NCBI GenBank assembly: GCA_017513905.1
Contig: JAFWMR010000012.1
Location: 1-39,933, forward strand
Direction of reading: 5' to 3'
Origin: Candidatus Saccharimonadota bacterium
Lineage (GTDB): Bacteria; Patescibacteriota; Saccharimonadia; Saccharimonadales; Saccharimonadaceae
Length of the DNA: 39,933 bases
The position numbers were made by a program, and so were the translations under genes. Shown here piece by piece: positions 7,424 through 39,933 of the stretch; within the stretch, counting starts at the first letter, position 1; the number at the start of each line of letters is the position of its first letter. The notes below the pieces were generated by a model that was not told where the DNA came from, made no database searches, and saw nothing but the letters and a program-made list of their open reading frames with translations.

Positions 7424-7452
7424 ATTATAACATGAAATGCTTATTTTTACAA
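7424..7452 (-). promoter_or_regulatory. Promoter of the secreted six-Cys gene
   Basis: TTGTAA (7447-7452), 17 bases, TATAAT (7424-7429). The leader is about 50 bases and has a 5' hairpin and a strong Shine-Dalgarno. Confidence 0.75.
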
Positions 7453-13692: not shown

Positions 13693-16600
13693 CTATTTTT
13701 TTGTACGCTTGCTCAGGTGTATCAAACCTAGGATTATTAGGGCAACAGAAGATGATGTAAGCATGCACATTAGTAATGTGAATGAATTGAATTCGTTCGT
13801 TTCATTCATATTGAGCTTAGCCTTGCTAGACCCTGATGTGTTCGGAACTTCAGGGGCGATCTTTTCGTAATGATAGATAATTGCACGATCTTCTTCTGTG
13901 AAGGTGAGGTCGATTTCTCCGTCATCGACAATAACGTAACCTTCAATCTCTGGGATTTCATGTTCGCATTGATCTCCAACATATCCTTCTGCTTGTTCCG
14001 GCTCTTTTATCTCGTTGTCGTCTTGGTCTACATATTGGAAGGTAATTACAGCTGGAGTTCGTACGAGTGTTTGAATCGTGTCTGCTGCATCGTTATCTTT
14101 GTCGTCGAGTTCAATGGTTGCTTCGATAGTGGTGACTAATATGTCGTCTGCTCTTGCGCCTTCGAAAACTAGTTCAATTGCGTGTTCGATAGAGATATCG
14201 CCCTCGATGTAAGAGTTGTAAAGCGATTCAACTTCCCAGGTTATCGTATTGTTTTCGGCGTCATAGATCCCACCGTCTAGTTCGGAGTCATCTTCCGTGA
14301 TAGGATAAGGAATTTTAAGCGTAAGCGTTATGTTAGTGTCGCCTATATAATCAACTACGTGAGCAAAGTAGTCTATCGAATAAGAGACTGGTGAAAGTTT
14401 GTTATCTATGGTTTCTGGTCCGGTAATGGAGACTTCAGAATTAATTTGAGGATCCTTTTTTTGATAATAGTATATTACGTCAATATTCACCGCACGTACC
14501 GTACCGGTATAATTGGCTGGGCGTTCGGAGACGAGCTCGTAGTTCGCGAATTCATCTGGGATTTCTTCGAGCGGCATAGTTGTATATGTCTCGCCATATT
14601 CATACTCTTCGGTTGTGTCGTCGGCAATTGGAGTAGTTGTGTCTTTAATGTAGTAGTGAGTTGTGACGATACCAATTTTCTTCTTGTAATAATATGTGAC
14701 GGTAATATTGCCAGATACAGTTCCGGATGTTTGACCTACGATGGAATCGATTTCGTAATCAGTATCTACGTCTCCTTGTGGCGCTTCGTAATGTTGCCCC
14801 CAATATACTGTAGTGATACTATCCGGTATTAGTTGTGTCGAAGTGCCGGCTTTGTAGTAGTGAACGACTAGTCTAGCAGTTTTTTGGTTGTAAGTAAGGC
14901 TGTAAGTATTTCCCGTGAGTTGTTCTGTTTTGTTGTAATTCGTTAGATCCGGTGAAGAGAATGTATATGTCAGTTTATCTCCTGTATTAGCGTATTTTGG
15001 TAGATCGACTGTAAAATTACCATTCCCTGAAGTATTGACGCTAAAGGTTTGTTGGGTATTGTCACTCGCAGTAATTGTGATTGTTATTGTGGATGGACGA
15101 GTGCCGAATTGGTTGTTTTGGTCATTAAATGTGACATTCCCGGAATAAGTGGTCGTTTCAACATATTCGACTACGCCGATATTATAGCGAGCTTCACCAG
15201 AAGTCTGGCTTGGGGAAACTGGCGTTATACGTGCGGTTGTGTGGGCGGGCGTAGAGGTCCTATCCCCTTCCGCTTGATTATCAGTGTTGTAATTACCCGT
15301 GTTGGATACATCGCCCTTCTGAGTAAATAGATAAGTTGTACCCGCTCCGCCTAGAGGGTGTTTATTCGTGACGACCATGTAATAGCTATCTGGATTTGTG
15401 ATTAGCTCTATGATGCCGTATTGTCCATTTGTGTTGGTTTCTGTAGAACGGACGAGGCGGTCTGATGTTTTGTCGTAAAGATCTATTTTCCACCCTGCTT
15501 CTTTAAGGCTTTGTTCGCCTGAATCTTTCTTTCCGTTTTCGTTAGTATCAACGAAGATTTCACCGAAGACAGTACCATTTGTTAATTGTATAGAGACGTA
15601 GCTGCCTTTGTACCAGCCAGCAAATACGTCGTTCGACGAATTTACAAGTTGTTGGAAGAATAGAGGTCGCCAGGTGTTGATTGAGCCATCAGAGGCACTG
15701 TCTAGGCTTGTAGTCTTAAGTAGATATATAAAGTCATAAACATCTGCCCTGTCTGGTTGGTTGGCTGGTATATCTGCCGCGGTTATCTTGACGCAGTTTA
15801 CCTCTTGCCAGTCAGAATCTGTCCAGCCCGTGGTATTCACCGTGAATTTTGCGCTTTCACTATCTAATTCATTGCCATTATCTGATGGCGTGACGTTTTT
15901 GCCGTAGGCGATAACGAAGTGTTCGTCGTCTGGATTTGTAATGGCGCCGTCAAGTGTAGCAGAGAATTCAAAAGGTAGATTGTTGTAGCTTAATGAACCC
16001 CAATCTTGATCTTTTTTAGGTATTGGAGAGTAGACTGTTACGGGATTTGTGATTTCTACGCCAGAATTGTTTATCAGTGAGATTTTCATATCGGCAGCAG
16101 AGCCACTTACTGAGCCAATTGTGATTGGGTTTGAACCTTCGGTCCAAGTTAGCCAAGTGTCGGAGCTAGTGTGTTTTCCCGAGTTCTCTGTTAGTACGGA
16201 GGCTGATTGCCGAATCTGATAGTAATTTGTAGTTGCTTTTCTGATCATGCCCCCGTTTTCAACGATGCTTATTCCAAATGGATCACCAGAGGCATCATTT
16301 GACGTGATTGAGCCGTCATCTGGATCTTGGATGAACAACATGTTTGAAATGTTATTGGATTGATTCGGGGTAGTGACGCTGGTCTCAATCGAGAAGGAGA
16401 TGATTAATTGACTATAGGATAATTTGCCATCGCCTGTTATTGTGTTTGTAGATAGACTTGCCAAACCGTTTGCGACATTTCTACCGTCTAATATGTATAA
16501 TTTCGCCGTTTCTGTGTCTATTGTTGTAATTTGTCCAAAAAGACTGGTGATATCTTGATTGCCGCGTGCTGTTCCGTTTGTAACTGTTATGTTAGAAATT

Positions 16601-18447
16601 GGCAAGAAGTTGCCAGATGCATCTTTTGCTTCTGATCGCAAATAGATAATTGGGTTTCTCGTACCGTAAATATGCCCAGGTCCATTAGTTGCGCCATATG
16701 GAGTGACTGTGAACGAGAACGATAATGTTTCTCCTGCAATCTTTGATATTGTGGCTGGCGCTGTGATATTCATCCCTCCTGAACCACTTGTTACATTACT
16801 CGCGATTGTCGCGACGCCCGTGGTTTGCTCGCGATTATTAGCGTCGAATACTTCTATTGTGGCGATTCCTGGTTGGGATTCGTTAAGACGTTTTCCTATG
16901 AATACTAGCGCTCTCGAGCCATCATTTTGATTCGTATATCGTAGTTGTGTGGTCGCCGGAATGACGCCAATAAGATACTCTACTTCTGTAATATAGTCAT
17001 CTTTTTCTATGTCCAAATTAGTGTAAGAGATGGCGGCTGACATGCCGTATTCATTGCACGATGCGTTCACGGTTGCATCTTTCTCTATACCGCTCTGCGT
17101 TTTTATATGTACTGATTCGATTCTTCCTCTTGGAGTACACGGTAATCTTAACATCATAACTCCAAGAACAGCCGTGTCGAATGTGATATGAGCTTTTTTG
17201 GGTGAGCTATCTGCATTCCCTCGGTTGTTGACATAGCCGTAGCCAAGTACGCCAGTCATTCCCTCGCCTTCGCGAACCGGGCTGTTTACGTTGATATTGT
17301 TAGCGGTACCGATATTTGCTGGATCTAGGTTGTTCCATCCAACCGTAACGTCTTCTGCATTTGGTAAAATGATATATTTGGCTGTTTGCGTATTGCGATG
17401 CGCTATTGTTATGTCTGGGCTACCTGGTTGCCAATAAGATGTCTCTCCAGTAGCAGTAATCGTGATAACCTCGTCTGGCATTGCATTTTCTGAGAATGTT
17501 ACAGAGTATGGGATTGCTAGGTTGCCCGTAATTGCAGTGTTCGGAGTATATGTTAATATATAGTTGCCGTTAGCGGCATCTGAACTATCAAAAGAGTATT
17601 GTTCGCTATCTGTTGCCGTAGATTGTATTATTGCGTTTCCTTCGATATGGAAGGTGAATTTAATCTTGGTGATTAATCTAGTTACATTATAGTGGCTGCT
17701 AAGAACATAATTTGAACGAGACGTTCGAATGTAATCTTTATTAACAGAAAAGGTGGAACCAGCGCCGACATAATTTGTTGGTGTTGAGGTTGCGAATTGA
17801 CCACCAATGCTAACACCAGTCGGGACATTTACATCGACGCTTGCTTCTTCGAGCTCGTTATCGATGTATGTTTTTACGACGATTGCGTCTTTGATGTATC
17901 CAAGGTTGATGACGTTGTCCGCTTTGACTTTAATATTAATAGTAATCGCTTTACTACCTTCAGTGAAATAATAAACGCGTGTTCCGGATTCGGCGAATGT
18001 GTATCCTAACACTGGTTCTTGATCTAATGCAATCGTTTCGATACCGTTCGTTCCTTTGGATGTATTAAGTTGGGAGAGGAGATTTTGATCATTGGCAGCA
18101 TCGTCAACCCACGACATTCCAACTGGTAGCGATATAGACATTTTTTTCTGTCCATCAGTAATTGGCAAGTTGTTCAGGGTAATTTTAGCGTCGTAGATTT
18201 TAGATGCCGCGATATGTGAACCTGTTTTTATATAGCTAAAGTTAACAATAGCATCGTTTATCCCGGGAGAAAAATCTACCTCGCCATCTTCGCCATTGAT
18301 TATGGCGGACATATATTGAGATTCCGCATGCGAAAACTGTGGGCGAATAAATGTCGTATAAATTGCGGTTGCGATACAAATGCATACCGCTACGAATAGT
18401 ACGGCGTATTTACTTTTTATTTTTGGTTTTTTGTGAATTGATTTCAT
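13693..18447 (-). CDS. Giant cell-surface adhesin with SdrD-B-like and MucBP repeats
   Basis: This 1584-residue protein is a probable adhesin. Residues 1-42 are a basic signal peptide (KKPKIKSK then a hydrophobic core, cleavage near FSHAES). Residues about 43-960 are Thr/Ser/Asn-rich beta-type domains without a name I can give. An SdrD-B-like domain begins GEIFVDTNENGKKDSGEQ (about 966). A Cna-B-like domain spans about 1106-1191. Two MucBP repeats (starting RLVVHYYKAG and IVTTHYYIKD) cover about 1192-1332, and a third MucBP-like copy (ITFQYVDQDDNEIKEP) about 1465-1530. The end has PNTSG, a membrane helix and KRTKK, like a degenerate LPxTG sorting signal. MucBP domains bind mucin-type or host-surface ligands, and attachment to a host cell is an inference. 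It has its own terminator. Confidence 0.9.
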   Translation of the reverse strand: MKSIHKKPKIKSKYAVLFVAVCICIATAIYTTFIRPQFSHAESQYMSAIINGEDGEVDFSPGINDAIVNFSYIKTGSHIAASKIYDAKITLNNLPITDGQKKMSISLPVGMSWVDDAANDQNLLSQLNTSKGTNGIETIALDQEPVLGYTFAESGTRVYYFTEGSKAITINIKVKADNVINLGYIKDAIVVKTYIDNELEEASVDVNVPTGVSIGGQFATSTPTNYVGAGSTFSVNKDYIRTSRSNYVLSSHYNVTRLITKIKFTFHIEGNAIIQSTATDSEQYSFDSSDAANGNYILTYTPNTAITGNLAIPYSVTFSENAMPDEVITITATGETSYWQPGSPDITIAHRNTQTAKYIILPNAEDVTVGWNNLDPANIGTANNINVNSPVREGEGMTGVLGYGYVNNRGNADSSPKKAHITFDTAVLGVMMLRLPCTPRGRIESVHIKTQSGIEKDATVNASCNEYGMSAAISYTNLDIEKDDYITEVEYLIGVIPATTQLRYTNQNDGSRALVFIGKRLNESQPGIATIEVFDANNREQTTGVATIASNVTSGSGGMNITAPATISKIAGETLSFSFTVTPYGATNGPGHIYGTRNPIIYLRSEAKDASGNFLPISNITVTNGTARGNQDITSLFGQITTIDTETAKLYILDGRNVANGLASLSTNTITGDGKLSYSQLIISFSIETSVTTPNQSNNISNMLFIQDPDDGSITSNDASGDPFGISIVENGGMIRKATTNYYQIRQSASVLTENSGKHTSSDTWLTWTEGSNPITIGSVSGSAADMKISLINNSGVEITNPVTVYSPIPKKDQDWGSLSYNNLPFEFSATLDGAITNPDDEHFVIAYGKNVTPSDNGNELDSESAKFTVNTTGWTDSDWQEVNCVKITAADIPANQPDRADVYDFIYLLKTTSLDSASDGSINTWRPLFFQQLVNSSNDVFAGWYKGSYVSIQLTNGTVFGEIFVDTNENGKKDSGEQSLKEAGWKIDLYDKTSDRLVRSTETNTNGQYGIIELITNPDSYYMVVTNKHPLGGAGTTYLFTQKGDVSNTGNYNTDNQAEGDRTSTPAHTTARITPVSPSQTSGEARYNIGVVEYVETTTYSGNVTFNDQNNQFGTRPSTITITITASDNTQQTFSVNTSGNGNFTVDLPKYANTGDKLTYTFSSPDLTNYNKTEQLTGNTYSLTYNQKTARLVVHYYKAGTSTQLIPDSITTVYWGQHYEAPQGDVDTDYEIDSIVGQTSGTVSGNITVTYYYKKKIGIVTTHYYIKDTTTPIADDTTEEYEYGETYTTMPLEEIPDEFANYELVSERPANYTGTVRAVNIDVIYYYQKKDPQINSEVSITGPETIDNKLSPVSYSIDYFAHVVDYIGDTNITLTLKIPYPITEDDSELDGGIYDAENNTITWEVESLYNSYIEGDISIEHAIELVFEGARADDILVTTIEATIELDDKDNDAADTIQTLVRTPAVITFQYVDQDDNEIKEPEQAEGYVGDQCEHEIPEIEGYVIVDDGEIDLTFTEEDRAIIYHYEKIAPEVPNTSGSSKAKLNMNETNEFNSFTLLMCMLTSSSVALIILGLIHLSKRTKK

Positions 18448-18636
18448 ACATCTCCCGTTTGCTGACGATTAGTTTGATCAACTCACACACTATACTTGTT
18501 TGGATTTTATATTAATATACAGAAAAAAGCAATAGCGTTTTACGGGTTTTGCGTTTGAGATAAGTGTGACATCGTCAATTTCTGAAGCTAACGGGCATAA
18601 TAATTGAAGGAAAGAACCGAATTATTGGATTTAATT

Positions 18637-19020
18637 TTATACGCTCGGAATATATGTGCCATTATCATCGACATTCCCTGCGCGGTTTGCAAACGCGAAG
18701 CCAGATTTGCCTGGTGCCTTATCGAAAATACGATAGAAATTATTAGTACTTTCTGAAGCGCTTCATAATGTAGCCGTGACATTGCTAACATTCCAGTTCG
18801 TTATCATAGAGAGGTTGGAGATTGATAAGTCGCTGGAAAACATCCGACATATATTGGATACCTTAACTGTGCCCCAGTTGGCGAGGCCGTAGATGTCGGC
18901 GAGAGAACTAGCGTTTTCGAACATACTCTTCATACTGGTGACATTTTCTGTGTTCCAAATATTCGGATTGTCATTCTTGCCCGTAGCTAGTGCGTCTACG
19001 TTGGCGATTTGGGTCCTGCG
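18637..19020 (-). pseudogene. Remnant of a DUF285 (BspA-like) surface protein
   Basis: The minus strand between the adhesin and the tRNA reads as 128 codons of DUF285-type repeat, with WNTENVTSMKSMF, then ANWGTVKVSNICRMFSS and NWNVSNVT. It is broken by an in-frame TGA at 18763-18765 and resumes with FDKAPGKSGFAF before ending at TAA (18637-18639). It has no start codon or signal peptide. It is a different subtype from the intact DUF285 gene at 19891, because it lacks that gene's long GYSATTFSLDLS inserts. This decayed copy fills the 650-base gap after 18447. Confidence 0.7.
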
Positions 19021-19055
19021 ATACTACCTTTCTTAAAAAGAAAAGATAAAATCCA

Positions 19056-19082
19056 CAAAAAATACGCCTCACTAGCGCATTA
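19056..19082 (-). terminator. Terminator after tRNA-Glu(UUC)
   Basis: AATGCGC...GCGTATT forms a 7-base stem (one G-T pair) followed by T residues on the minus strand, 14 bases after the tRNA 3' end. Confidence 0.6.
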
Positions 19083-19095
19083 TATATCAAATAGA

Positions 19096-19170
19096 TGGTG
19101 ATCTCTGCGAGAGTCGAACTCGCATTGACGGGATGAAAACCCGTTGTACTAACCGTTATACTAAGAGACC
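19096..19170 (-). tRNA. tRNA-Glu (anticodon UUC)
   Basis: A full cloverleaf is seen on the minus strand: acceptor GGTCTCT paired with AGAGATC, an anticodon stem CGGG/CCCG around TTTTCAT (anticodon TTC) and a T-arm with GTTCGAC. The 3' CCA is encoded. Confidence 0.95.
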
Positions 19171-19180
19171 ATACTAATTT

Positions 19181-19209
19181 ATTATAACAAAGATTCGTAA
19201 AAAAGACAA
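19181..19209 (-). promoter_or_regulatory. Promoter of tRNA-Glu(UUC)
   Basis: TTGTCT (19204-19209), 17 bases, TATAAT (19181-19186), 11 bases before the tRNA. Confidence 0.75.
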
Positions 19210-19271
19210 GCTTGCAACTATAAGTTTTAAAATCACTTTTTTCATGTAATAAATTCAGCACCCACACATTC

Positions 19272-19300
19272 TGGACAGAGCAGCACTATCGTGTTATACT
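19272..19300 (+). promoter_or_regulatory. Promoter of tRNA-Glu(CUC)
   Basis: TGGACA (19272-19277), 17 bases, TATACT (19295-19300), 13 bases before the tRNA. Confidence 0.7.
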
Positions 19301-19313
19301 TATATGAACCAAT

Positions 19314-19390
19314 GGTTCCGTCGTCTAGTGGTCTAGGACGTCTGGTTCTCATCCAGAAAATCGCGGGTTCGACTCCCGCCGGAATCACCA
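19314..19390 (+). tRNA. tRNA-Glu (anticodon CUC)
   Basis: Acceptor GGTTCCG pairs with CGGAATC (one G-T). The anticodon loop TTCTCAT lies between TCTGG and CCAGA, so the anticodon is CTC. The T-arm has GGTTCGACTC and the 3' CCA is encoded. It is divergent from the tRNA-Glu(UUC) gene. Confidence 0.95.
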
Positions 19391-19426
19391 CATTAGGACG
19401 TCAATATGGAGACATAGTGGCGTGTA

Positions 19427-19456
19427 GAAAGCCCCCGATTTCTCGGGGGTTTTCTA
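19427..19456 (+). terminator. Terminator after tRNA-Glu(CUC)
   Basis: GAAAGCCCCCGA...TCGGGGGTTTTC is a GC-rich stem followed by a short T run. Confidence 0.85.
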
Positions 19457-19459
19457 TTA

Positions 19460-19890
19460 TCCTGAACCAATTTTTTAGAGAGTGTGTCAAATCGGTTACA
19501 TCAATTGCGAGAACCGATTTCCTTTTCCGCTACTACGATTGCTTACAATTATCGTAATCGTTCTTTTCTGAATATAACTTTACATAAAAAGCTAGCATTT
19601 TCTGGGAGAATCCGTCTTGGAATCTGTGCCGGAATCTCTCTTGGAATCTGACCTTGAGGTTCTCCGTCCTCTTCTGGCTGGAGTCTGGGCCAGAAGAGGC
19701 ATTTAAGGGAAACGATTATCTTGCTGTTTACCAGCAAGATTTTTTTGTAGACGGCGGGCGTAATAGTACCAGAAAAACACTCTTCCATTTTTCTTATGCT
19801 AATGTTACTATGATTACAAGTAGAGTTGGCCAACAATATAAAATAAACAAGTAATAAAGTTGCTTAACTTGAGAGGTCATAGTTATTACC
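19460..19890. other. 431-base region without a convincing gene
   Basis: Short open frames on both strands show no family signature. The stretch holds three near-copies of GGAATCT within about 45 bases (19619-19650), a stem CTTCTGGC...GCCAGAAG (about 19670-19697) and a plus-strand hairpin with a T run at 19718-19746. It could be a small structured RNA or a decayed gene. I cannot decide from sequence. Confidence 0.4.
19718..19746 (+). terminator. Orphan plus-strand terminator
   Basis: ATCTTGCTG-TTTAC-CAGCAAGAT (9-base perfect stem) is followed by TTTTTT. No annotated plus-strand gene precedes it, so it may end an unrecognised transcript. Confidence 0.75.
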
Positions 19891-22041
19891 ATGTCAAACC
19901 GTAAAGCATATCTAGGAGTAGGCTCTTTACTTAGCTTAACTCTTATTTCTGGAGCCGTCCTTTCTGCTCCAAAAGCTAATGCCGATACATCTGCTATAGT
20001 AAATCTCACAGTTAATGTTCCTGCTGCTTGTTCTCTCACTCCAGCCAACACTTACCTAACTAACACTATTAATCCAGGAACTAATAAAGAAATCGGTACT
20101 GCTAATCTCAAAGCTGTCTGTAATGACCCATCTGGCTTTGCTATTTATGCTGTAGGCTATACTAATGAAGAATACGGTAATACCAACCTTATTACCGACT
20201 TAGGTTCTAATCATAGTATTCATACTGGTACTGGTACTTCTACTTCTAACTGGAATATGACTATTGCTAATGACGATGATGTCACAGGTGATCATGTTGC
20301 TACTATAGAAAACGGATTCAACCAAGCTAGAAGCATTCCAGAAACCTATACTAAGATTGCTTCTTTTGATTCTACTACCGATCAATCTACTGGCGCTAAC
20401 TTACTCACTAGGTTTGATGCCTATATTGCGCCAAATCAAGCTGCAGGGACTTATGAAGGTAAGGTTAAGTTTACTCTGGTTCACCCATCCAATGAACAGA
20501 ATCCTGCTGGTTACCTTTACTACGATGCTAATGGCGGAGAAAACGCTCCTGAGCGTCAAGCTGGTGAAGAGGGATCAGAAACTGGAACATATAACTACAC
20601 CATCTCTTCCCAAATTCCTCATAAGTACGAGTCTGTCTTCCTAGGTTGGTCCGAAGACCCTGAAGCTACTGAGCCGGAATACCAGCCAGAAGAAGCTATT
20701 ACTTCAAACAAACCCCTTACGCTTTATGCGGTCTGGCGACAGGCACAGATAGCTATGCTTGAGATGGGAAAAAGTATTAACGCCAAGTTTAAAAATCTTG
20801 CTAATAACACTACTAATGCAAGTGATTCTACGCAAGACACCGAAATCCAAAATCTCCGCCGTGCTAACACACTCCCTGACGACTTCGTTGTCTCTGCTAC
20901 CAACACTATTTCTATCCCTCGAAGTACTCCCGTCTATATATTCTTCAATGATGGAGTTATGTATTACTACACTACAGCCGACATTATTTATCTGAATTCT
21001 GATTCAAGTTATATGTTCAATAACCTTCGTTCGATAAATGGCACTTTTAGCCTTTCTGATTTGGACGCTTCAAAAGTAACAATTATGAATCGAATGTTTG
21101 AATATACTGGCTATTCATCTACCAACTTCTCTCTCGATCTCTCTGGTTGGGATGTTTCAAGCGTAGTATATATGTATGGCATGTTCTCTAACGCTGGCTA
21201 TTCATCTACCAACTTCTCTCTTGATCTTTCTGGTTGGGATACTCAAAATGTTGTTGACATGAATTACATGTTCTCAGATGCTGGCCACGATGCTTCTTCC
21301 TACAATCTTAATATTTCCGATTTAAATACTTCTAAGGTAACCGGTATGCATGGTATGTTCTATCGTTCGGGTTACAACGCTAATTCAATTAATTTCGATT
21401 TTTCTCATTGGGACACATCAGATGTAACAGATATGGCCGCCATGTTCTCTCAGATCGGTTATAATGCTACTACATTCTCTATTAATGTTTCTGGCTGGGA
21501 TACTTCTAAAGTGACGAATATGGGCAGTATGTTCTACTACGCTGGCTACTCCGCCACTACTTTCTCGCCTGACCTCTCTGGTTGGGATACTTCTAGCGTA
21601 ACAAACATGAGTAATATGTTCTACTGTGCTGGCTACTCCGCTACTACTTGGTCTCTTGGCAATCTTTCCAATTGGGACACTTCCAGTGTAACAAATATGC
21701 ATCAAATGTTTTACTATGCTGGGACCAACGCCACCACCTTCTCTCTCAACCTCTCTAATTGGAATAGCTTCAATGTGACTGATATGATAGAAATGTTCGT
21801 CCGAACTGGTTACAATGCTACCACTTATCATCTTAATCTTTCTCATTGGAATACATCAAGCGTGACAAGCAGTATGTCACAAATGTTTTCTAATGCAGGC
21901 CGCAACGCTACAATCTGGTCAGTAACTATTCCACAAACCAATGGAAACGGAATAACTAATACAACTAGCCAGATGTTTGGTAACACTAATTCAATTTATG
22001 CTCCACCAGCTAGTGGGAGAAGCTTCACACTGGCGCAATAG
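19891..22041 (+). CDS. Secreted DUF285/InlB-B repeat surface protein
   Basis: This is a probable surface or released repeat protein. A signal peptide (SNRKAYLGVGSLLSLT..., cleavage near ANA-DT) covers residues 1-32. A beta-rich domain with two Cys (AACSL and AVCND) spans about 33-200. An InlB-type B repeat (LYYDANGG ... FLGWSEDPE ... LYAVW) covers about 203-283. A Ser/Asn linker follows. DUF285 repeats of about 30 residues (GWDTSxVTNMxxMF with GYSATTFSLDLS) cover about 370-690. No LPxTG motif or C-terminal helix is seen, so retention is unexplained. Codons end mainly in T or C on the plus strand, opposite to other plus genes here, which suggests recent inversion or transfer. The start choice is supported by the signal peptide; no clear promoter or Shine-Dalgarno is visible. 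Confidence 0.88.
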   Translation: MSNRKAYLGVGSLLSLTLISGAVLSAPKANADTSAIVNLTVNVPAACSLTPANTYLTNTINPGTNKEIGTANLKAVCNDPSGFAIYAVGYTNEEYGNTNLITDLGSNHSIHTGTGTSTSNWNMTIANDDDVTGDHVATIENGFNQARSIPETYTKIASFDSTTDQSTGANLLTRFDAYIAPNQAAGTYEGKVKFTLVHPSNEQNPAGYLYYDANGGENAPERQAGEEGSETGTYNYTISSQIPHKYESVFLGWSEDPEATEPEYQPEEAITSNKPLTLYAVWRQAQIAMLEMGKSINAKFKNLANNTTNASDSTQDTEIQNLRRANTLPDDFVVSATNTISIPRSTPVYIFFNDGVMYYYTTADIIYLNSDSSYMFNNLRSINGTFSLSDLDASKVTIMNRMFEYTGYSSTNFSLDLSGWDVSSVVYMYGMFSNAGYSSTNFSLDLSGWDTQNVVDMNYMFSDAGHDASSYNLNISDLNTSKVTGMHGMFYRSGYNANSINFDFSHWDTSDVTDMAAMFSQIGYNATTFSINVSGWDTSKVTNMGSMFYYAGYSATTFSPDLSGWDTSSVTNMSNMFYCAGYSATTWSLGNLSNWDTSSVTNMHQMFYYAGTNATTFSLNLSNWNSFNVTDMIEMFVRTGYNATTYHLNLSHWNTSSVTSSMSQMFSNAGRNATIWSVTIPQTNGNGITNTTSQMFGNTNSIYAPPASGRSFTLAQ

Positions 22042-34324: not shown

Positions 34325-34942
34325 TTATTCCTTTCCCTCGATGGTGAGATTACCCTTCTTTGGACCTGGGACTGCGCCCTTGAGGCCTAAGAGGTTGTTT
34401 TCTTTGTCGATGTAGGCGACAACGAGGTTTTTGACGGTCACTTGATCATGACCCATGCGACCAGGCATACGCTTGCCCTTGAAGACCTTTTGAGGATACA
34501 TAGAGCCGATAGAGCCGACTTTTCTAATATCGCCTTTGAAGCCGTGGGTATTGCGAGATTCCTGGAAATTCCAGCGTTTTACTGTACCGGCAAAGCCTTT
34601 ACCTTTGGAAATACCGGTAACGGTGACTTTGTCGCCAAGTTCGAACGCTTCAACAGTAATAGTGTCGCCGAGTTTAACATCAGCGATATCATCGCGACGA
34701 AACTCTTTAAGAACTTTAGGGTTGATGTTTTCTCCAGCCTTTTTGACGTGGCCGGAAACCGACTTGCTCAGATTCTTACCCTTACCAAACCCGAGCTGAA
34801 CAGCGTTATAACCATCGGTTTCGACGGTTTTAATCTGAGTCACTGTAGCTGGGCCGGCTTCAACGATGGTCACAGGGGTGACAACACCATCTTTGCCGAT
34901 GATTTGGGTCATACCAACTTTGGTGCCGAGAATGACTTTCAT
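34325..34942 (-). CDS. rplC: 50S ribosomal protein L3
   Basis: L3 is an early 50S assembly protein near the peptidyl-transferase centre. The 205 residues begin MKVILGTKVGMTQI and include KGKGFAGTVKRWNF and GSIGSMYPQKVFKGKRMPGRMG. It is the first gene of the cluster here. S10, which normally precedes it, is absent. The leader upstream is highly structured. Confidence 0.97.
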   Translation of the reverse strand: MKVILGTKVGMTQIIGKDGVVTPVTIVEAGPATVTQIKTVETDGYNAVQLGFGKGKNLSKSVSGHVKKAGENINPKVLKEFRRDDIADVKLGDTITVEAFELGDKVTVTGISKGKGFAGTVKRWNFQESRNTHGFKGDIRKVGSIGSMYPQKVFKGKRMPGRMGHDQVTVKNLVVAYIDKENNLLGLKGAVPGPKKGNLTIEGKE

Positions 34943-35044: not shown

Positions 35045-35073
35045 ATTTTATCACAAGATACAAGATTTAGCAA
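35045..35073 (-). promoter_or_regulatory. Promoter of the rplC cluster
   Basis: TTGCTA (35068-35073), 17 bases, TAAAAT (35045-35050). The predicted leader is about 95 bases. Confidence 0.65.
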
Positions 35074-35084
35074 GGGGTGAAATA

Positions 35085-35107
35085 TGAAAAATCCGGCTAT
35101 GCCGGAT
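35085..35107 (-). terminator. Terminator after the 35121 gene
   Basis: ATCCGGC-ATA-GCCGGAT (7-base stem), followed by TTTTTC on the minus strand, immediately upstream of the rplC promoter. Confidence 0.8.
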
Positions 35108-35120
35108 ATATAATAGATAA

Positions 35121-35462
35121 TTAATCGTCGGTGAAATGATAGCCGCTTTTTGCATATAGAGAGTGTAATTTTTTCATGTACTGTTCGTGCTCAGCATTCA
35201 TGGCCGCGATGGATTCATCTTGGATTTCGTCTGCTTTAGATTTGGCTGCTTCAAGTTTAGCATGGATTGTAGCCCACATCTCATGCGAGTCGAGCTTTTC
35301 TTCCAATGTACTAGTGTAACAGTTTTGAAAGAGATCGAAGACTTTGCGATCGTGTTCGGCTTCAATTTCTTGGAGGCGGCTTTTATGCTCCTGGTTGAGC
35401 AGTTCACGCTCTGCTTCTAAAGCTCTTACCCTCCTTCGGCGTTCAAAGAATCCGTGAAACAT
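35121..35462 (-). CDS. Small coiled-coil protein
   Basis: I do not recognise a family. Nearly all 113 residues are predicted helical with heptad spacing. After a basic start (FHGFFERRRRVRALEAER) come Glu/Lys/Gln-rich heptads to about residue 95. One Cys is present. There is no membrane segment. A Shine-Dalgarno AAAGGAG precedes the ATG. It is the left-most unit of the accessory-gene array, with its own promoter and terminator. Confidence 0.7.
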   Translation of the reverse strand: MFHGFFERRRRVRALEAERELLNQEHKSRLQEIEAEHDRKVFDLFQNCYTSTLEEKLDSHEMWATIHAKLEAAKSKADEIQDESIAAMNAEHEQYMKKLHSLYAKSGYHFTDD

Positions 35463-35506
35463 ATGCTATCAACTCCTTTGAAGAGCTAGGTGTAAACCTT
35501 GTTAAT

Positions 35507-35535
35507 AATATATAATGAATAGTTGTTTTGGTCAA
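35507..35535 (-). promoter_or_regulatory. Promoter of the 35462 gene
   Basis: TTGACC (35530-35535), 17 bases, TATATT (35507-35512). The leader is about 40 bases and ends in AAAGGAG. Confidence 0.7.
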
Positions 35536-35645
35536 TATATTGTATCGAAGTTTGTATCCTTGATTTTCTATTGATATTATTATATAGTTTATATTGACGA
35601 TGTCGAGAGATTATGGCATTGTACTTTTATAATAGGGGTGATTTG

Positions 35646-35930
35646 ATGCTAACCTATAAGGTGTTCGAAGCAAGTAACGAAATCCCATCCTACGCCTTTG
35701 AAGAAATCGAGGCAAAGATTAACCGCGTCGCGAAAGTCGGGTTCAGACTCGATAATGTAGAGTTGACCTGTGAAGATCGCGGAGACAGTCAGACTCGACT
35801 TTATTATGTCGTTGCAGTGATGTCTATGACTGGCAAGAAAAACAAACACGGCAAGAAGAGCAAGAAGGATAAGAACGCCAAGAAGGTGAAAGCTACTGAA
35901 ACTGTGGATGAACCCGATAAATCGAATTGA
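35646..35930 (+). CDS. Small basic protein with Lys-rich tail
   Basis: The ATG at 35646 is chosen because GGGGTG lies correctly upstream; a longer frame from 35613 has no such site. The 94 residues have a folded N-terminal part (about 1-60) and a Lys-rich tail (KKNKHGKKSKKDKNAKKVK) that could bind nucleic acid or the ribosome. I do not recognise a family. The promoter is unclear (TTGACG at 35594-35599 is a candidate -35). It is the only plus-strand gene of the array and converges on the 36008 gene, each with its own terminator. Confidence 0.65.
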   Translation: MLTYKVFEASNEIPSYAFEEIEAKINRVAKVGFRLDNVELTCEDRGDSQTRLYYVVAVMSMTGKKNKHGKKSKKDKNAKKVKATETVDEPDKSN

Positions 35931-35947
35931 CTCATACCTACTGTATA

Positions 35948-35970
35948 ACCCCGCTTCGGCGGGGATTTTT
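35948..35970 (+). terminator. Terminator after the 35646 gene
   Basis: CCCCGC-TTCG-GCGGGG followed by ATTTTTG. Confidence 0.88.
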
Positions 35971-35974
35971 GTAT

Positions 35975-35997
35975 AAAAAAGCCTCACTAGGTGAGGC
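35975..35997 (-). terminator. Terminator after the 36008 gene
   Basis: GCCTCAC-CTA-GTGAGGC followed by TTTTTTATAC on the minus strand. Confidence 0.88.
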
Positions 35998-36007
35998 GAA
36001 GGAGTCA

Positions 36008-36502
36008 TTAGATATAATAGTGTTTTTTGATCTGCTTTCCGAGCTCTTTCCAGGTTTCTGGATTACGTTCGTTGAGCAGTCTTTCGACGAGGGCCCTGAT
36101 TTCGGTGGCAACTTGATCTTTTGTCATGCTTTTAAGAGCGGGCACGTCGCTTAAATCTATGACATTTGATGGTAAGTATAGTTCATTCCATGTGCAATTG
36201 AAGGATGGATGTGCAAGTGCATCGAGGTCTGCTAGGTAGTAGAAATATCGAATGTCTGGCAGGATAAGATCTTCGGCGCCATCGACACCTTTGATGACCG
36301 TAGCTTCGTAATACGGCAGAAAAATAGGGAGTTCGGTTCCCTCTTCCATTTTCCGTATTTCCGTTTCAGGGTTAGATTTGACGATTACGTGGGAGAATAA
36401 GGTTTGTCTGATTTTCTGTGAGCGTGGCCGTTCGTTGAGCTTGGCTTTTTTTGCCTGATACGTAGCGATTCTTTTTGCACGCATCTCTACAAGAATGTTC
36501 AG
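36008..36502 (-). CDS. Uncharacterised soluble protein, start codon uncertain
   Basis: I do not recognise a family. About 164 residues, soluble, with a basic N-terminal part (KRIATYQAKKAKLNERPRS) and a mixed alpha/beta body; the C-terminal half has helix-rich EIRALVERLLNER. The Shine-Dalgarno AAAAGGAG ends 8 bases before an in-frame CTG (36502), which I take as the start. A GTG at 36511 overlaps the Shine-Dalgarno itself, and the first ATG (36484) is 21 bases downstream of it. The promoter is at 36549-36576 and the terminator follows 11 bases after the stop. Confidence 0.6.
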   Translation of the reverse strand: MNILVEMRAKRIATYQAKKAKLNERPRSQKIRQTLFSHVIVKSNPETEIRKMEEGTELPIFLPYYEATVIKGVDGAEDLILPDIRYFYYLADLDALAHPSFNCTWNELYLPSNVIDLSDVPALKSMTKDQVATEIRALVERLLNERNPETWKELGKQIKKHYYI

Positions 36503-36548
36503 ATTAATCACTCCTTTTCAATGTGCGTAGTAGAAGACTAGTTATTGT

Positions 36549-36576
36549 ATTATATCATAAATGTAGTTTTTTGCAA
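36549..36576 (-). promoter_or_regulatory. Promoter of the 36008 gene, fused to the upstream terminator
   Basis: TTGCAA (36571-36576), 16 bases, TATAAT (36549-36554). The -35 directly follows the T-tract of the terminator at 36578-36601 (TTTTTC-TTGCAA). Confidence 0.75.
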
Positions 36577-36577
36577 G

Positions 36578-36601
36578 AAAAAGCCCTGCTCGGGGCAGGG
36601 C
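36578..36601 (-). terminator. Terminator after the 36622 gene
   Basis: GCCCTGC-CCCGA-GCAGGGC followed by TTTTTC on the minus strand. Confidence 0.88.
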
Positions 36602-36621
36602 AAAGGGGTGATAGAAATAGT

Positions 36622-36924
36622 TTATTCAATTGGACTCTTGTCTTGATTATCTGTTTGTACTTCTTGCTCTTTTTCCTGTGTTTTGTCTGGGATGATTACG
36701 CAGTCTCTGTACATTGTTAGATATGCCCTAATGAATAAAAAGAGAGGAATACTGACGGTAATTAAGGCGATGAAGAGTAAAATGACGCTGGTTATGGAAT
36801 TGCTTCTGCCGCTGGCGGTGACGGATCCATACCAGACTGCGAAGAGAACTCCAGTTGGAAGTAAGATTGAACTCCATAGACTCGTCGAAAGAAGGGCGCC
36901 AATTGGGTCAAACTTATTTTTCAT
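36622..36924 (-). CDS. Small two-helix membrane protein
   Basis: The ATG at 36924 (MKNKFDP) is chosen for its AGAGGTGAG Shine-Dalgarno; the longer frame from 36948 has none. The 100 residues have two hydrophobic segments (about 15-37 and 46-67) and a charged, Gln/Asp-rich C-terminal tail (about 78-100) that should lie in the cytoplasm. I do not recognise a family. It has its own promoter and terminator. Confidence 0.7.
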   Translation of the reverse strand: MKNKFDPIGALLSTSLWSSILLPTGVLFAVWYGSVTASGRSNSITSVILLFIALITVSIPLFLFIRAYLTMYRDCVIIPDKTQEKEQEVQTDNQDKSPIE

Positions 36925-36967
36925 GTGCTCACCTCTGTTTAGATTCACATCGTAGATGCGTTTTTAT

Positions 36968-36996
36968 ATTATAACATAAGAACCTTTTTTGAGCAA
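36968..36996 (-). promoter_or_regulatory. Promoter of the 36924 gene, fused to the upstream terminator
   Basis: TTGCTC (36991-36996), 17 bases, TATAAT (36968-36973). It abuts the terminator T-tract (TTTTTC-TTGCTC). The leader carries a small GCATC/GATGT hairpin. Confidence 0.75.
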
Positions 36997-36997
36997 G

Positions 36998-37017
36998 AAA
37001 AACCCCGCTAGGCGGGG
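36998..37017 (-). terminator. Terminator after the 37023 gene
   Basis: CCCCGC-CTA-GCGGGG followed by TTTTTC on the minus strand, 6 bases after the stop. Confidence 0.85.
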
Positions 37018-37022
37018 CGTGA

Positions 37023-37580
37023 TTAGCAAGGGGTGCATTCTTTGACGGCGAAATTACCTATACTGCCATAAGTGGGCGAGCTATTGATGCTGGTGTAATC
37101 TCTGAGGTTTCCGTTGATGTTCTCTGAGAAATTGGTGACGTAGCCGTTTTCCCATTTAATTTGGTACCTTTCATCATTCTTGCCGTCCATTGTCTTGACA
37201 AGTATTGTCCCGCTGCTGTATGTTAGTGGGATTTTGAACCAGATGAATTTACGCTCGTCGTGAGGAGTAATCGGATCTGCATCCGACGGGATATAGAAGC
37301 CAAATCCAAGGCATCCGATTTTGATATCAATGGCTCCAAAGCGTAGACTTTTAAAGTCTTCGCCGATTTCGGCAGCGCTAAATAACGGTTCGTATTCCTC
37401 GTTGTGGAACTCAATTTGGGTCTGCTCAGTGTCGATTATGGCCATTCTAGCAAGTTTTTGAAATCTGTCCAAGTCGTTCCATTCTGAATTATTGAAGGTG
37501 ATATCAACATCTGGTAGATAGAGTTTGGAAAATGCGATTAAATAAGCATCAAGCTGTTGACGGTATTCTATTATGCGCAA
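37023..37580 (-). CDS. Uncharacterised soluble protein with C-terminal CxxC
   Basis: I do not recognise a family. About 185 residues, no membrane segment. The N-terminal half is helical (RIIEYRQQLDAYLIAFSKLYLP), the rest beta-rich, and the last residues are ECTPC, a terminal CxxC that could bind metal or be redox-active. The start is taken as the TTG at 37580, because AGAGGTG is correctly spaced for it; a GTG at 37589 lies inside the Shine-Dalgarno. Own promoter and terminator. Confidence 0.6.
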   Translation of the reverse strand: MRIIEYRQQLDAYLIAFSKLYLPDVDITFNNSEWNDLDRFQKLARMAIIDTEQTQIEFHNEEYEPLFSAAEIGEDFKSLRFGAIDIKIGCLGFGFYIPSDADPITPHDERKFIWFKIPLTYSSGTILVKTMDGKNDERYQIKWENGYVTNFSENINGNLRDYTSINSSPTYGSIGNFAVKECTPC

Positions 37581-37631
37581 GTATAACACCTCTTTCTTTT
37601 TTTGATGTGCGAGCCAAAGGCTATACTATAT

Positions 37632-37659
37632 ATTATAACATCTTCTTGATTATAAACAA
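37632..37659 (-). promoter_or_regulatory. Promoter of the 37580 gene, fused to the upstream terminator
   Basis: TTGTTT (37654-37659), 16 bases, TATAAT (37632-37637). It follows the terminator T-tract (TTTTC-TTGTTT). Confidence 0.7.
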
Positions 37660-37680
37660 GAAAACCCCGCCGTAGCGGGG
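37660..37680 (-). terminator. Terminator after the 37695 gene
   Basis: CCCCGC-TACG-GCGGGG followed by TTTTC on the minus strand. Confidence 0.85.
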
Positions 37681-37694
37681 TGAACGAGAATGTA

Positions 37695-38042
37695 CTAGAT
37701 GTGGTTTTCGCATAGACAAAGATAAGCATTGAAGTTAACGATGTGAGCATTGGTCTGATTAACGATGCCGTTTAAGATGATGCATGATTTGATTGCGTCT
37801 TGATTCATAATCGGATCTCTGCGTCGTAAAGCGGTCTGTTGGTAATCGCCAGCCATTTTTGCGCCGGAATAGACTTCTTGTTTGAGTAGTTTAAGCGCAC
37901 GGTCGATTTTTTTGTCGGCGAGAACAATCATGTATTTGTCTGCTTGATTGTATGGACGTGGACAGCTTGCTAAGAGCCCCATAATGCTAACCCATTCTCC
38001 TAACGAATCGACGATAGCCTGGAGTTCGCGAATGTTTTTCAT
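37695..38042 (-). CDS. Small helical protein, paralogue of its upstream neighbour
   Basis: The 115 residues look all-helical and soluble. It resembles the preceding gene product: both have an N-terminal helix, an NRPY/PRPY motif about 30 residues in, then a D..., a LKxLxQ segment, a G(D/N)Y motif and a later helix with Asn-Ala-Tyr. It starts inside the last codon of that gene (ATGA overlap), with AAGGGGGG as Shine-Dalgarno. I do not recognise a family. The two may form a heteromer, which is inference. Confidence 0.7.
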   Translation of the reverse strand: MKNIRELQAIVDSLGEWVSIMGLLASCPRPYNQADKYMIVLADKKIDRALKLLKQEVYSGAKMAGDYQQTALRRRDPIMNQDAIKSCIILNGIVNQTNAHIVNFNAYLCLCENHI

Positions 38043-38434
38043 GTAATCCCCCCTTGCGAACCGACGCGCTCCAGAAGTTGTTGTTGATATGCATTGAATA
38101 GGTCTCCTTGTTCGTCGGCCTGTGTGGCAAGATGTGCGATAGCCTGGCAGACCCCAAGAGCACGAAAGAATTCGGTTTGGCCATTAATTACTGGACATTT
38201 TCCGGAGCGAACATCTGTGGCGACATCTTTGACGTAGTTTCCAACGGAGTTAGATGCATTTGCTATGTCTTGTTGCAAAGCTTTGAGACGTTCAGCCGTC
38301 ATAGGGACTATGGCATTCCAGGCTACCATATCGTAGGCGGTATATGGGCGATTTAGGTTAGAGATTTGGGATATTGTTTTTAGATTATCTTTGATTTGCG
38401 TGAGCTCAGATTCCATTTCTTCTAATGTGCGCAT
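38039..38434 (-). CDS. Small helical protein, paralogue of its downstream neighbour
   Basis: The 131 residues are soluble and helical with an N-terminal coiled coil (MRTLEEMESELTQIKDNLK). NRPY near residue 28, LKALQQD and GNYVKDVA match the downstream protein in order and spacing. A single Cys pair (GKCPV and GVCQA) is present. A Shine-Dalgarno AGGGGGG precedes the ATG. It is the first gene of the only two-gene unit in this array. Confidence 0.7.
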   Translation of the reverse strand: MRTLEEMESELTQIKDNLKTISQISNLNRPYTAYDMVAWNAIVPMTAERLKALQQDIANASNSVGNYVKDVATDVRSGKCPVINGQTEFFRALGVCQAIAHLATQADEQGDLFNAYQQQLLERVGSQGGIT

Positions 38435-38462
38435 GTCTCATCCCCCCTAGTATGATTAGTAT

Positions 38463-38491
38463 ATTATATAATTATTTATCATTTTTGACAA
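38463..38491 (-). promoter_or_regulatory. Promoter of the paralogue pair, fused to the upstream terminator
   Basis: TTGTCA (38486-38491), 17 bases, TATAAT (38463-38468). It follows the terminator T-tract (TTTTC-TTGTCA). Confidence 0.8.
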
Positions 38492-38492
38492 G

Positions 38493-38514
38493 AAAAGGCC
38501 CCACTGGGCCTTTT
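38493..38514 (-). terminator. Terminator after the 38548 gene
   Basis: AAAAGGCCC-AGTG-GGGCCTTTT (read on the minus strand) followed by C-TTG. It is nearly symmetric and could act both ways. Confidence 0.8.
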
Positions 38515-38547
38515 TGAGGGCTTTGCGGGGCTTGTAATGGGGGAGGT

Positions 38548-39252
38548 TTAGAAACGCGCGAGGGGCACGAGCCCGTTGTTGGACTTGTAATATACGACGC
38601 TTTCTTTGCTGATGTAGAACTTGTCTTCCAGTAAATGGACGAAATTCCACATTATCATAGAGAATTCGCCTTCTGGATCGTAGGGTTCAGAGTCTTCTTC
38701 GCTGACGGTCGTTGTTAGCCAAGGATAGAGCTCGAGTGCTGTAGGTTCAACCTTAAGAAATAGCTCGATGAATCGTGTTCTGTGCTCTGGATGAGCCGTG
38801 AGCGTGTACGGATACACACTGTAGAACTCCAGTCTTAGCTTTCCGTACTCGTGATCGTATTCGAATAGCTCATCATCTCCGTAGTCAGGACCGCATTCTA
38901 CGGGTTCGATAGCGGCGGCGGCGGGCGGCTCAGTTTGATAGCTGGGCGCCGGAGCATTGATGGGCGGCTCGGTCTCGAAGATCGCCACGGGGGATTCGGT
39001 GTGAAGAGGCGCGGTGGGACGTGCCACGGGCGACTCCGTCGTGAGCGGGCAGTTTGTCGGCTTAGCCTGAAGAGGCATGGGCGGTTCGGTCGTGTAACTG
39101 GGGAAACCATGAGGTTCCTCCGTTACTACTGCGGTTGGAGCTGCAGTAGGTTCAGAATCGGCCTTTGTACCGATAGCGATTCCGATGGTCAGCGCGAGGG
39201 CGACGATCATAATGATAGACAGCCACAGATAGTGGTTCGCTTTGTTAGACAT
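38548..39252 (-). CDS. Membrane-anchored protein with TEPP/TESP-repeat stalk
   Basis: The ATG at 39252 (MSNKANHYLW) is chosen for its GGGAGGG Shine-Dalgarno; the longer frame from 39342 would begin upstream of the leader. Of 234 residues, about 9-28 form a signal-anchor helix. Residues about 31-118 are a Pro/Thr/Ala-rich stalk with TTEPP, TTESP, HTESP, ETEPP and QTEPP motifs repeated about every 14 residues. Residues about 125-234 form an acidic globular domain. It is probably a surface protein held away from the membrane by the stalk. Function unknown. Confidence 0.75.
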   Translation of the reverse strand: MSNKANHYLWLSIIMIVALALTIGIAIGTKADSEPTAAPTAVVTEEPHGFPSYTTEPPMPLQAKPTNCPLTTESPVARPTAPLHTESPVAIFETEPPINAPAPSYQTEPPAAAAIEPVECGPDYGDDELFEYDHEYGKLRLEFYSVYPYTLTAHPEHRTRFIELFLKVEPTALELYPWLTTTVSEEDSEPYDPEGEFSMIMWNFVHLLEDKFYISKESVVYYKSNNGLVPLARF

Positions 39253-39313
39253 GGTATACCCTCCCTGTAAAGGTACGTAGTCAGAGATGTTTCTTAACAA
39301 CTCTGCTACGCTC

Positions 39314-39342
39314 ATTATAGCACATTTTGTTAAAAAAGTCAA
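39314..39342 (-). promoter_or_regulatory. Promoter of the 39252 gene
   Basis: TTGACT (39337-39342), 17 bases, TATAAT (39314-39319). The leader of about 55 bases has a long 5' hairpin (CGTAG-CAGAG with CTCTGA-CTACG). Confidence 0.8.
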
Positions 39343-39376
39343 TAATGCTTAAGGCAATTGCGCTAGTAAACAGGTA

Positions 39377-39402
39377 AGAAAAAGCCACCCGTGAGGGTGG
39401 CT
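39377..39402 (-). terminator. rRNA operon terminator
   Basis: AGCCACCC-TCAC-GGGTGGCT followed by TTTTTC on the minus strand, 11 bases after the 5S gene. Confidence 0.88.
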
Positions 39403-39412
39403 TCTCCATAAA

Positions 39413-39518
39413 TTGGCATCTTGCTAGTTTCCCGCTATCGCAGTATAATCGCCCCTACCAGGCTTGACTTCTGTGTTCGGAATGAGAACAGGTATTTCCC
39501 TGGCGGTATGGACGCCAA
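39413..39518 (-). rRNA. rrf: 5S ribosomal RNA
   Basis: The minus strand begins TTGGCGTCCATACCGCCAGG and ends with the complementary AGCAAGATGCCAA. The conserved loop sequence CCGAACACAGAAG is present. About 106 bases, slightly short for a 5S RNA; ends are estimated from the terminal helix. Confidence 0.9.
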
Positions 39519-39624
39519 AATACGCGCGAAATCTTTGATTTTGCGAGCTATTGGTATCCATTTGATGCTAAAGATTTTAATTGGCTCGGGGTTTGATATG
39601 AAATCAAGCTCCGATTGCTAGACT

Positions 39625-39933
39625 AAGTGCAAGACATAAAAAGGCGATGGACCGATTAGTATGCTTCGTCTCCACATGTTGCCATGCTTCCAACTTGCAC
39701 CTATCAACCAGATCTTCTTTCTGGGGTCTCATAGGGAATCCTTATCTTGGAGTAGGCTTCGCGCTTAATATGCTTTCAGCGCTTATCCCTTCCGAACATA
39801 GCTACTCGGCAATGCAGCAGGTGGCTACAACCGATACACTAGAGATTCGTCCACCCTGGTCCTCTCGTACTAGGGGCAGATCTCCTCAAGATTCCTAACG
39901 ATCATGCCGGATATAAACCGAACTGTCTCACGA
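39625..39933 (-). rRNA. rrl: 23S ribosomal RNA, 3' end (partial)
   Basis: The minus strand holds the sarcin-ricin loop region (TAGTACGAGAGGACC) and the conserved domain VI end (CATACTAATCGGTCCATCG). The gene runs off the right edge; its 3' end is estimated. A spacer of about 105 bases with no gene separates it from 5S. Confidence 0.93.

Follow-up and report, generated by a model that had tools for sequence, protein, structure and literature searches.

The stretch of DNA analysed here, called the window (39,933 nucleotides), is a contig of a 0.92-Mb genome assembled in 23 contigs, and its closest named relatives, on the evidence of rplC, are metagenome assemblies labelled 'Candidatus Saccharibacteria', the majority of them from the ruminant gut. 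The right end of the window carries the 23S and 5S rRNA genes, and between these and the S10 operon lies an array of eight open reading frames (ORFs), which are on the minus strand like the operons around them, with the exception of a single plus-strand ORF (35646-35930). The original prediction had described seven units, almost all on one strand; its orientation stands, but the locus holds eight ORFs, two of which (o6 and o7) share a promoter. The features are listed below from right to left, with the basis of each in brackets.

39635-39933, minus: 3' end of the 23S rRNA gene (Rfam RF02541); the contig ends inside the gene
39411-39519, minus: 5S rRNA gene, upstream border of the array (Rfam RF00001)
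39384-39401, minus: terminator hairpin of the rRNA operon, with a T-rich tail (sequence; fold, −17.5 kcal/mol)
39314-39342, minus: promoter of o8, TTGACT-17-TATAAT, unfused to a terminator (sequence)
38548-39252, minus: o8, 234 aa, with an N-terminal membrane or signal segment and a Pro/Thr/Glu-rich stalk (ORF; inspection)
38463-38512, minus: fused joint 4, hairpin, TTTTC, TTGTCA-17-TATAAT, upstream of o7-o6 and their putative driver (sequence, fold)
38039-38434, minus: o7, 131 aa, a predicted three-helix bundle (pLDDT 93)
37695-38042, minus: o6, 115 aa, a divergent paralogue of o7 (ORF, homology)
37632-37681, minus: fused joint 3, hairpin, TTTTC, TTGTTT-16-TATAAT (sequence, fold)
37023-37589, minus: o5, 188 aa, an orphan (ORF)
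36968-37018, minus: fused joint 2, hairpin, TTTTTC, TTGCTC-17-TATAAT (sequence, fold)
36622-36924, minus: o4, 100 aa, with two membrane segments (inspection)
36549-36601, minus: fused joint 1, hairpin, TTTTTC, TTGCAA-16-TATAAT (sequence, fold)
36008-36511, minus: o3, at most 167 aa, with an uncertain start (ORF)
35981-35997, minus: terminator of o3 (sequence)
35949-35964, plus: terminator belonging to o2 (sequence)
35646-35930, plus: o2, 94 aa, the sole plus-strand gene of the array (ORF)
35507-35535, minus: separate promoter of o1 (sequence)
35121-35462, minus: o1, 113 aa, coiled-coil-like (ORF)
35091-35107, minus: terminator of o1 (sequence, fold)
35045-35073, minus: promoter of the S10 operon, resembling that of an empty site in a relative, L110 (sequence)
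34325-34942, minus: rplC, which opens the S10 operon and forms the downstream border of the array (ORF, homology)

Products of the array genes

The array genes have no match above cut-off or noise in Pfam, NCBIfam, PHROG or PADLOC; the PADLOC search returned no known anti-phage gene, and none of the family searches points to an integrase or another mobility gene here. Fold searches with o7 (pLDDT 93) and o3 (pLDDT 79) yielded nothing with E < 0.001, and o7 has no significant match in the PDB. The o3 and o6/o7 families each occur in only 4 of 147 genomes of the genus, isolated copies at other loci included.

In the array homologues tested, codon position 3 varies most, and the codon has changed at 44-64% of conserved residues, similar to the 46% of rplD. 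Judged from these sequences, the array ORFs are coding, diverge fast and are subject to purifying selection on their proteins. By inspection, roughly one-third to one-half of the array proteins carry membrane or signal segments; the products are probably fast-evolving small accessory proteins of the surface and the cytosol, while a role at the surface or in host interaction is a guess.

An ATG is absent from the start region of o3 (window 36460-36520) and from that of its homologue in the related genome G002 (L033:590-625), and is present at the corresponding place in a second relative, G099. Translation of o3 and of the G002 homologue could possibly begin at a GTG that overlaps the ribosome-binding site, or at a non-standard start codon (ACG in G002).

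Fused terminator-promoter joints

At four minus-strand junctions, a hairpin, a T-tract and a C had been predicted to run directly into TTG, with TATAAT following after 16-17 nt, and all four are present as claimed. The hairpins have stems of 7-9 bp and loops of 3-5 nt ahead of their T-tracts and have folding energies between −12.9 and −15.2 kcal/mol (z between −2.8 and −4.5 against shuffles), and a GC-rich stem together with TTTTCTTG is common to many units. At the sequence level, accessory genes of the array are flanked by a promoter and a terminator of their own, a trait of morons. The idea that each gene is insulated holds, as far as sequence can tell, for the four fused joints but not for o6 and o7, where the start of o6 overlaps the stop of o7 (ATGA) behind one common promoter, nor for the first and last junctions of the array, both of which are unfused; between 5S and o8, for example, ~40 nt separate the terminator from the promoter.

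The joints are strongly enriched in the array. Defined strictly as a hairpin, a TTG within 8 nt and a perfect TATAAT at 16-18 nt, they number 4 in the 4.3-kb array (35085-39402) and 0 in a 157-kb sample from elsewhere in the genome, on which, together with whole-genome pattern searches, the own-genome statistics are based. Among 1000 dinucleotide shuffles, 999 contain none and one contains 1. A loose whole-genome pattern search gave nine matches, four of them in the array, and those inspected outside it have no hairpin. When terminators are counted instead, and a joint is scored if a −35 box lies within 12 nt of the terminator, 4/5 are fused in the array compared with 3/48 elsewhere in the genome (Fisher p = 0.0006); the fractions are 7/10 and 5/10 in the arrays of two relatives, and 28/370 in relatives' S10 loci at large.

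These counts bear on a simple explanation, namely that gene packing in a compact genome yields fused joints by itself and that the genes are ordinary fast-evolving orphans. The genome measures only ~0.92 Mb, and the joint is not specific to the array, because 6-8% of terminators elsewhere are fused as well. The rates in the arrays of three genomes are nevertheless far from this background, the 157 kb sampled elsewhere contain no strict joint, and packing alone predicts neither the empty site nor the reordering described below, which makes it an unlikely account of the locus.

The site in related genomes

The relatives compared are metagenome assemblies. The same layout of 5S, array and rplC exists in G002 (locus L033) and G099 (locus L090), with 5-7 fused joints each, or 8 in each by a looser joint scan. 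Between the flanks lie ~12 orphan genes in G002 and ~8 in G099, and all those identified are codirectional with the flanks. No other S10 locus among 80 has more than three fused joints in its upstream 10 kb.

The concatenated S10 proteins of the three array genomes are ~95% identical, whereas the array proteins are either missing from one another's arrays or only ~24-63% identical. For example, o7 has homologues that are 45% identical in the G099 array and 43% identical at a different locus in a further genome, G072; the o4 homologue in the G002 array is ~28% identical, with a better kept promoter and 5' UTR (79%); the o3 family has one copy in the G002 array and two in that of G099; and o5 has no homologue at the relatives' loci. 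The comparison of gene content beside the rRNA operon that was originally proposed therefore finds recurring fused joints with mostly different content. Family order has changed too: it is o7, then o4, then o3 in the window, with o3 (twice) ahead of o7 in G099, and o3 first and o4 later in G002. Identical gene order in distant relatives, which would have argued against gain of cassettes, was looked for and not found.

In L110 the site is empty. Here the 5S gene (242-350) is followed by a terminator, the S10 promoter and rplC at 537, with no gene in between, and the S10 proteins are 90% identical. A further site, L111, is partly filled, with different genes and one fused joint; one of its ORFs resembles glutathione peroxidase by inspection. 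In the tree of S10 proteins the three array genomes group together, and L110 and L111 are their sisters, L111 being sister of L110. In L112, rpoB-rpoC lie upstream of rplC, and the rRNA-S10 neighbourhood may therefore itself be derived. An empty site with conserved flanks (L110) and differing content at the window, L033, L090 and L111 are the traits by which genomic islands are recognized.

The tree also accommodates an ancestral array inherited vertically, in which lineages have lost different genes, the proteins have diverged very fast and no gene has been newly gained. G002 and G099 keep some neighbours in the same order (F5-F4, F6-F7 and ncRNA-F8), as such inheritance would have it, and the three array genomes are united in the tree with the empty L110 and with L111 as sisters. 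The conflicts in order, however, require moves in addition to losses, many genes have no counterpart, and relatives of array families reside at other loci, so that purely vertical inheritance is rather improbable. The architecture of the locus is real, non-random and evolutionarily active.

Several observations in the relatives stand beside this comparison. In G002, an adjacent pair of paralogous genes (L033:2100-2950) has nearly identical 5' UTRs (GGTTACTGGGGATCATCCCAGCACC...), which suggests duplication of a unit. ORF-poor stretches of ~450-570 nt (L090:4380-4950 and L033:5985-6440) occupy the same relative place in their arrays, each bounded by a TTGACT-17-TATAAT promoter on one side and a terminator on the other; they have no credible Rfam match and contain no tmRNA or tRNA, and are candidates for a structured non-coding RNA. 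Other chromosomal sites, L200:4857-6300 in G072 and L091:7600-9100 in G074, hold shorter rows of orphan genes that likewise show fused joints; the two promoters of L091 are nearly identical.

Units of turnover and candidate mechanisms

Six pairs of homologous genes follow different upstream neighbours; in all six, the DNA becomes similar at the promoter and stays so across the 5' UTR and into the gene. From the −35 box to the start codon these pairs align with z of 5.7-14.9 against shuffles, compared with 0.5-2.6 for the 100 bp before the hairpin. Part of this contrast is true by definition, as no alignment is expected between different neighbours; it is the promoter side whose alignment is informative. 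In three pairs with the same upstream neighbour, the upstream DNA aligns as well (z 3.3-6.7). This pattern indicates that a gene moves together with its promoter and 5' UTR. What turns over is therefore the combination of promoter, gene and terminator, with the fused joint as the seam. Together with the empty L110 and the differing, reordered sets of G002 and G099, these seams lend good support to the cassette-like gain suggested by the original prediction. The conserved promoters and 5' UTRs and the enriched joints are compatible with its other suggestion, strong selection for independent expression.

The locus is thus quite probably an accessory island that resembles morons, made up of autonomous transcription units and placed at the rRNA/S10 boundary in a small clade of Saccharibacteria from the ruminant gut. 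An inserted unit would comprise its own promoter, a 5' UTR, a gene or gene pair and an intrinsic terminator, and would nearly always be oriented like the flanking operons; since the units lie end to end, a terminator would be fused with the −35 box of the unit behind it. We infer that the joints act as terminators and promoters in vivo, keeping transcripts of the rRNA operon and of neighbouring units from running on and restarting transcription within ~50 nt, and units could therefore be added, lost and reordered without disturbing their neighbours or the essential S10 operon. Turnover may proceed through recombination in or near the joints, and the supply of units would probably come from duplication and from uptake of DNA from relatives.

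The phage moron is the closest concept to the array. Like morons, the units are single accessory genes with their own promoter and terminator, lying between conserved operons and varying in content among relatives; unlike morons, they are many, stand head to tail on a bacterial chromosome between rRNA and S10 genes, have fused terminators and promoters, and are accompanied by no phage genes. That phage morons are prophage genes under their own promoters (PMC6814406) would fit a prophage or satellite remnant of which only moron genes are left. Such a remnant is very unlikely, given that PHROG matches do not rise above noise, that none of 2.9 million viral contigs holds a relative of the o3 family or of the 225-aa family, and that the locus has neither an integrase nor a capsid gene and is flanked by rRNA and S10 genes.

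An integron-like cassette array, with a novel recombinase that uses the hairpins as recombination sites, would share with the locus its row of small orphan genes in mostly single-gene units and one orientation, the short inverted repeats at their boundaries, and an order that is shuffled and exchanged between relatives. The integron integrase TIGR02249, however, scores over cut-off in 0/3 genomes and at the locus itself no integrase does, weaker integrase matches being of a kind present in 14/14 control genomes. The attC sites described in PMC11014356 measure 101-127 bp; attC sites do not terminate, and integron cassettes are generally promoterless (PMC11014356). By their hairpins the joints look unlike attC sites, with stems and loops far below that size and T-tracts behind them, as in terminators; most units bear a promoter, and every fused joint has a promoter-like site, the reverse of promoterless cassettes behind one promoter. 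We regard an integron as extremely unlikely.

Patescibacteria genomic islands (for example PMC12455944) resemble the array in the variable accessory content of a streamlined candidate-phylum genome; the regular terminator/promoter seam and the single-gene units set the array apart. A limited search of papers on islands in Saccharibacteria and on arrays of fused terminators and promoters found no description of this layout.

A more specific form of the accessory island is a tentative possibility, namely a cassette system that operates without an integrase, in which the fused joint serves both as insulator and as recombination seam, and ordinary recombination through short shared joint sequences captures and shuffles units. 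If true, this would give a minimal-genome bacterium a standing platform for trying new genes beside its most active operons. More generally, the accessory island would illustrate how a reduced, probably host-dependent genome can reserve a safe site for gaining and testing genes, where newcomers bring their own on and off switches and leave the ribosomal operons on either side undisturbed. The locus furthermore offers a testable case of promoter-gene-terminator as the unit of turnover, an inventory of fast-evolving Saccharibacteria proteins that possibly act at the host-cell interface and, in the joint, a natural design for a compact insulator.

Of seven genomes searched, five contain 1-4 copies each of a near-identical 29-bp promoter, TTGCAAAAATAAGCATTTTATGNTATAAT, spacer included, which lies at 7424-7452 (minus strand) in the window and at loci L231-L244 in G002, G099, G072 and G159; a control search with the reversed sequence gave zero matches. 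It mostly precedes unrelated small orphan, membrane or lipoprotein-like genes, in and outside arrays, and one such gene in G099 (L241) looks by eye like a member of an array family. This recurrence suggests either a common regulator, with the genes as a candidate regulon, or dispersal of whole promoter-gene units. Elsewhere in the window (13693-22041), a putative surface protein of 1584 aa and a repeat protein of 716 aa are encoded beside two tRNA-Glu genes.
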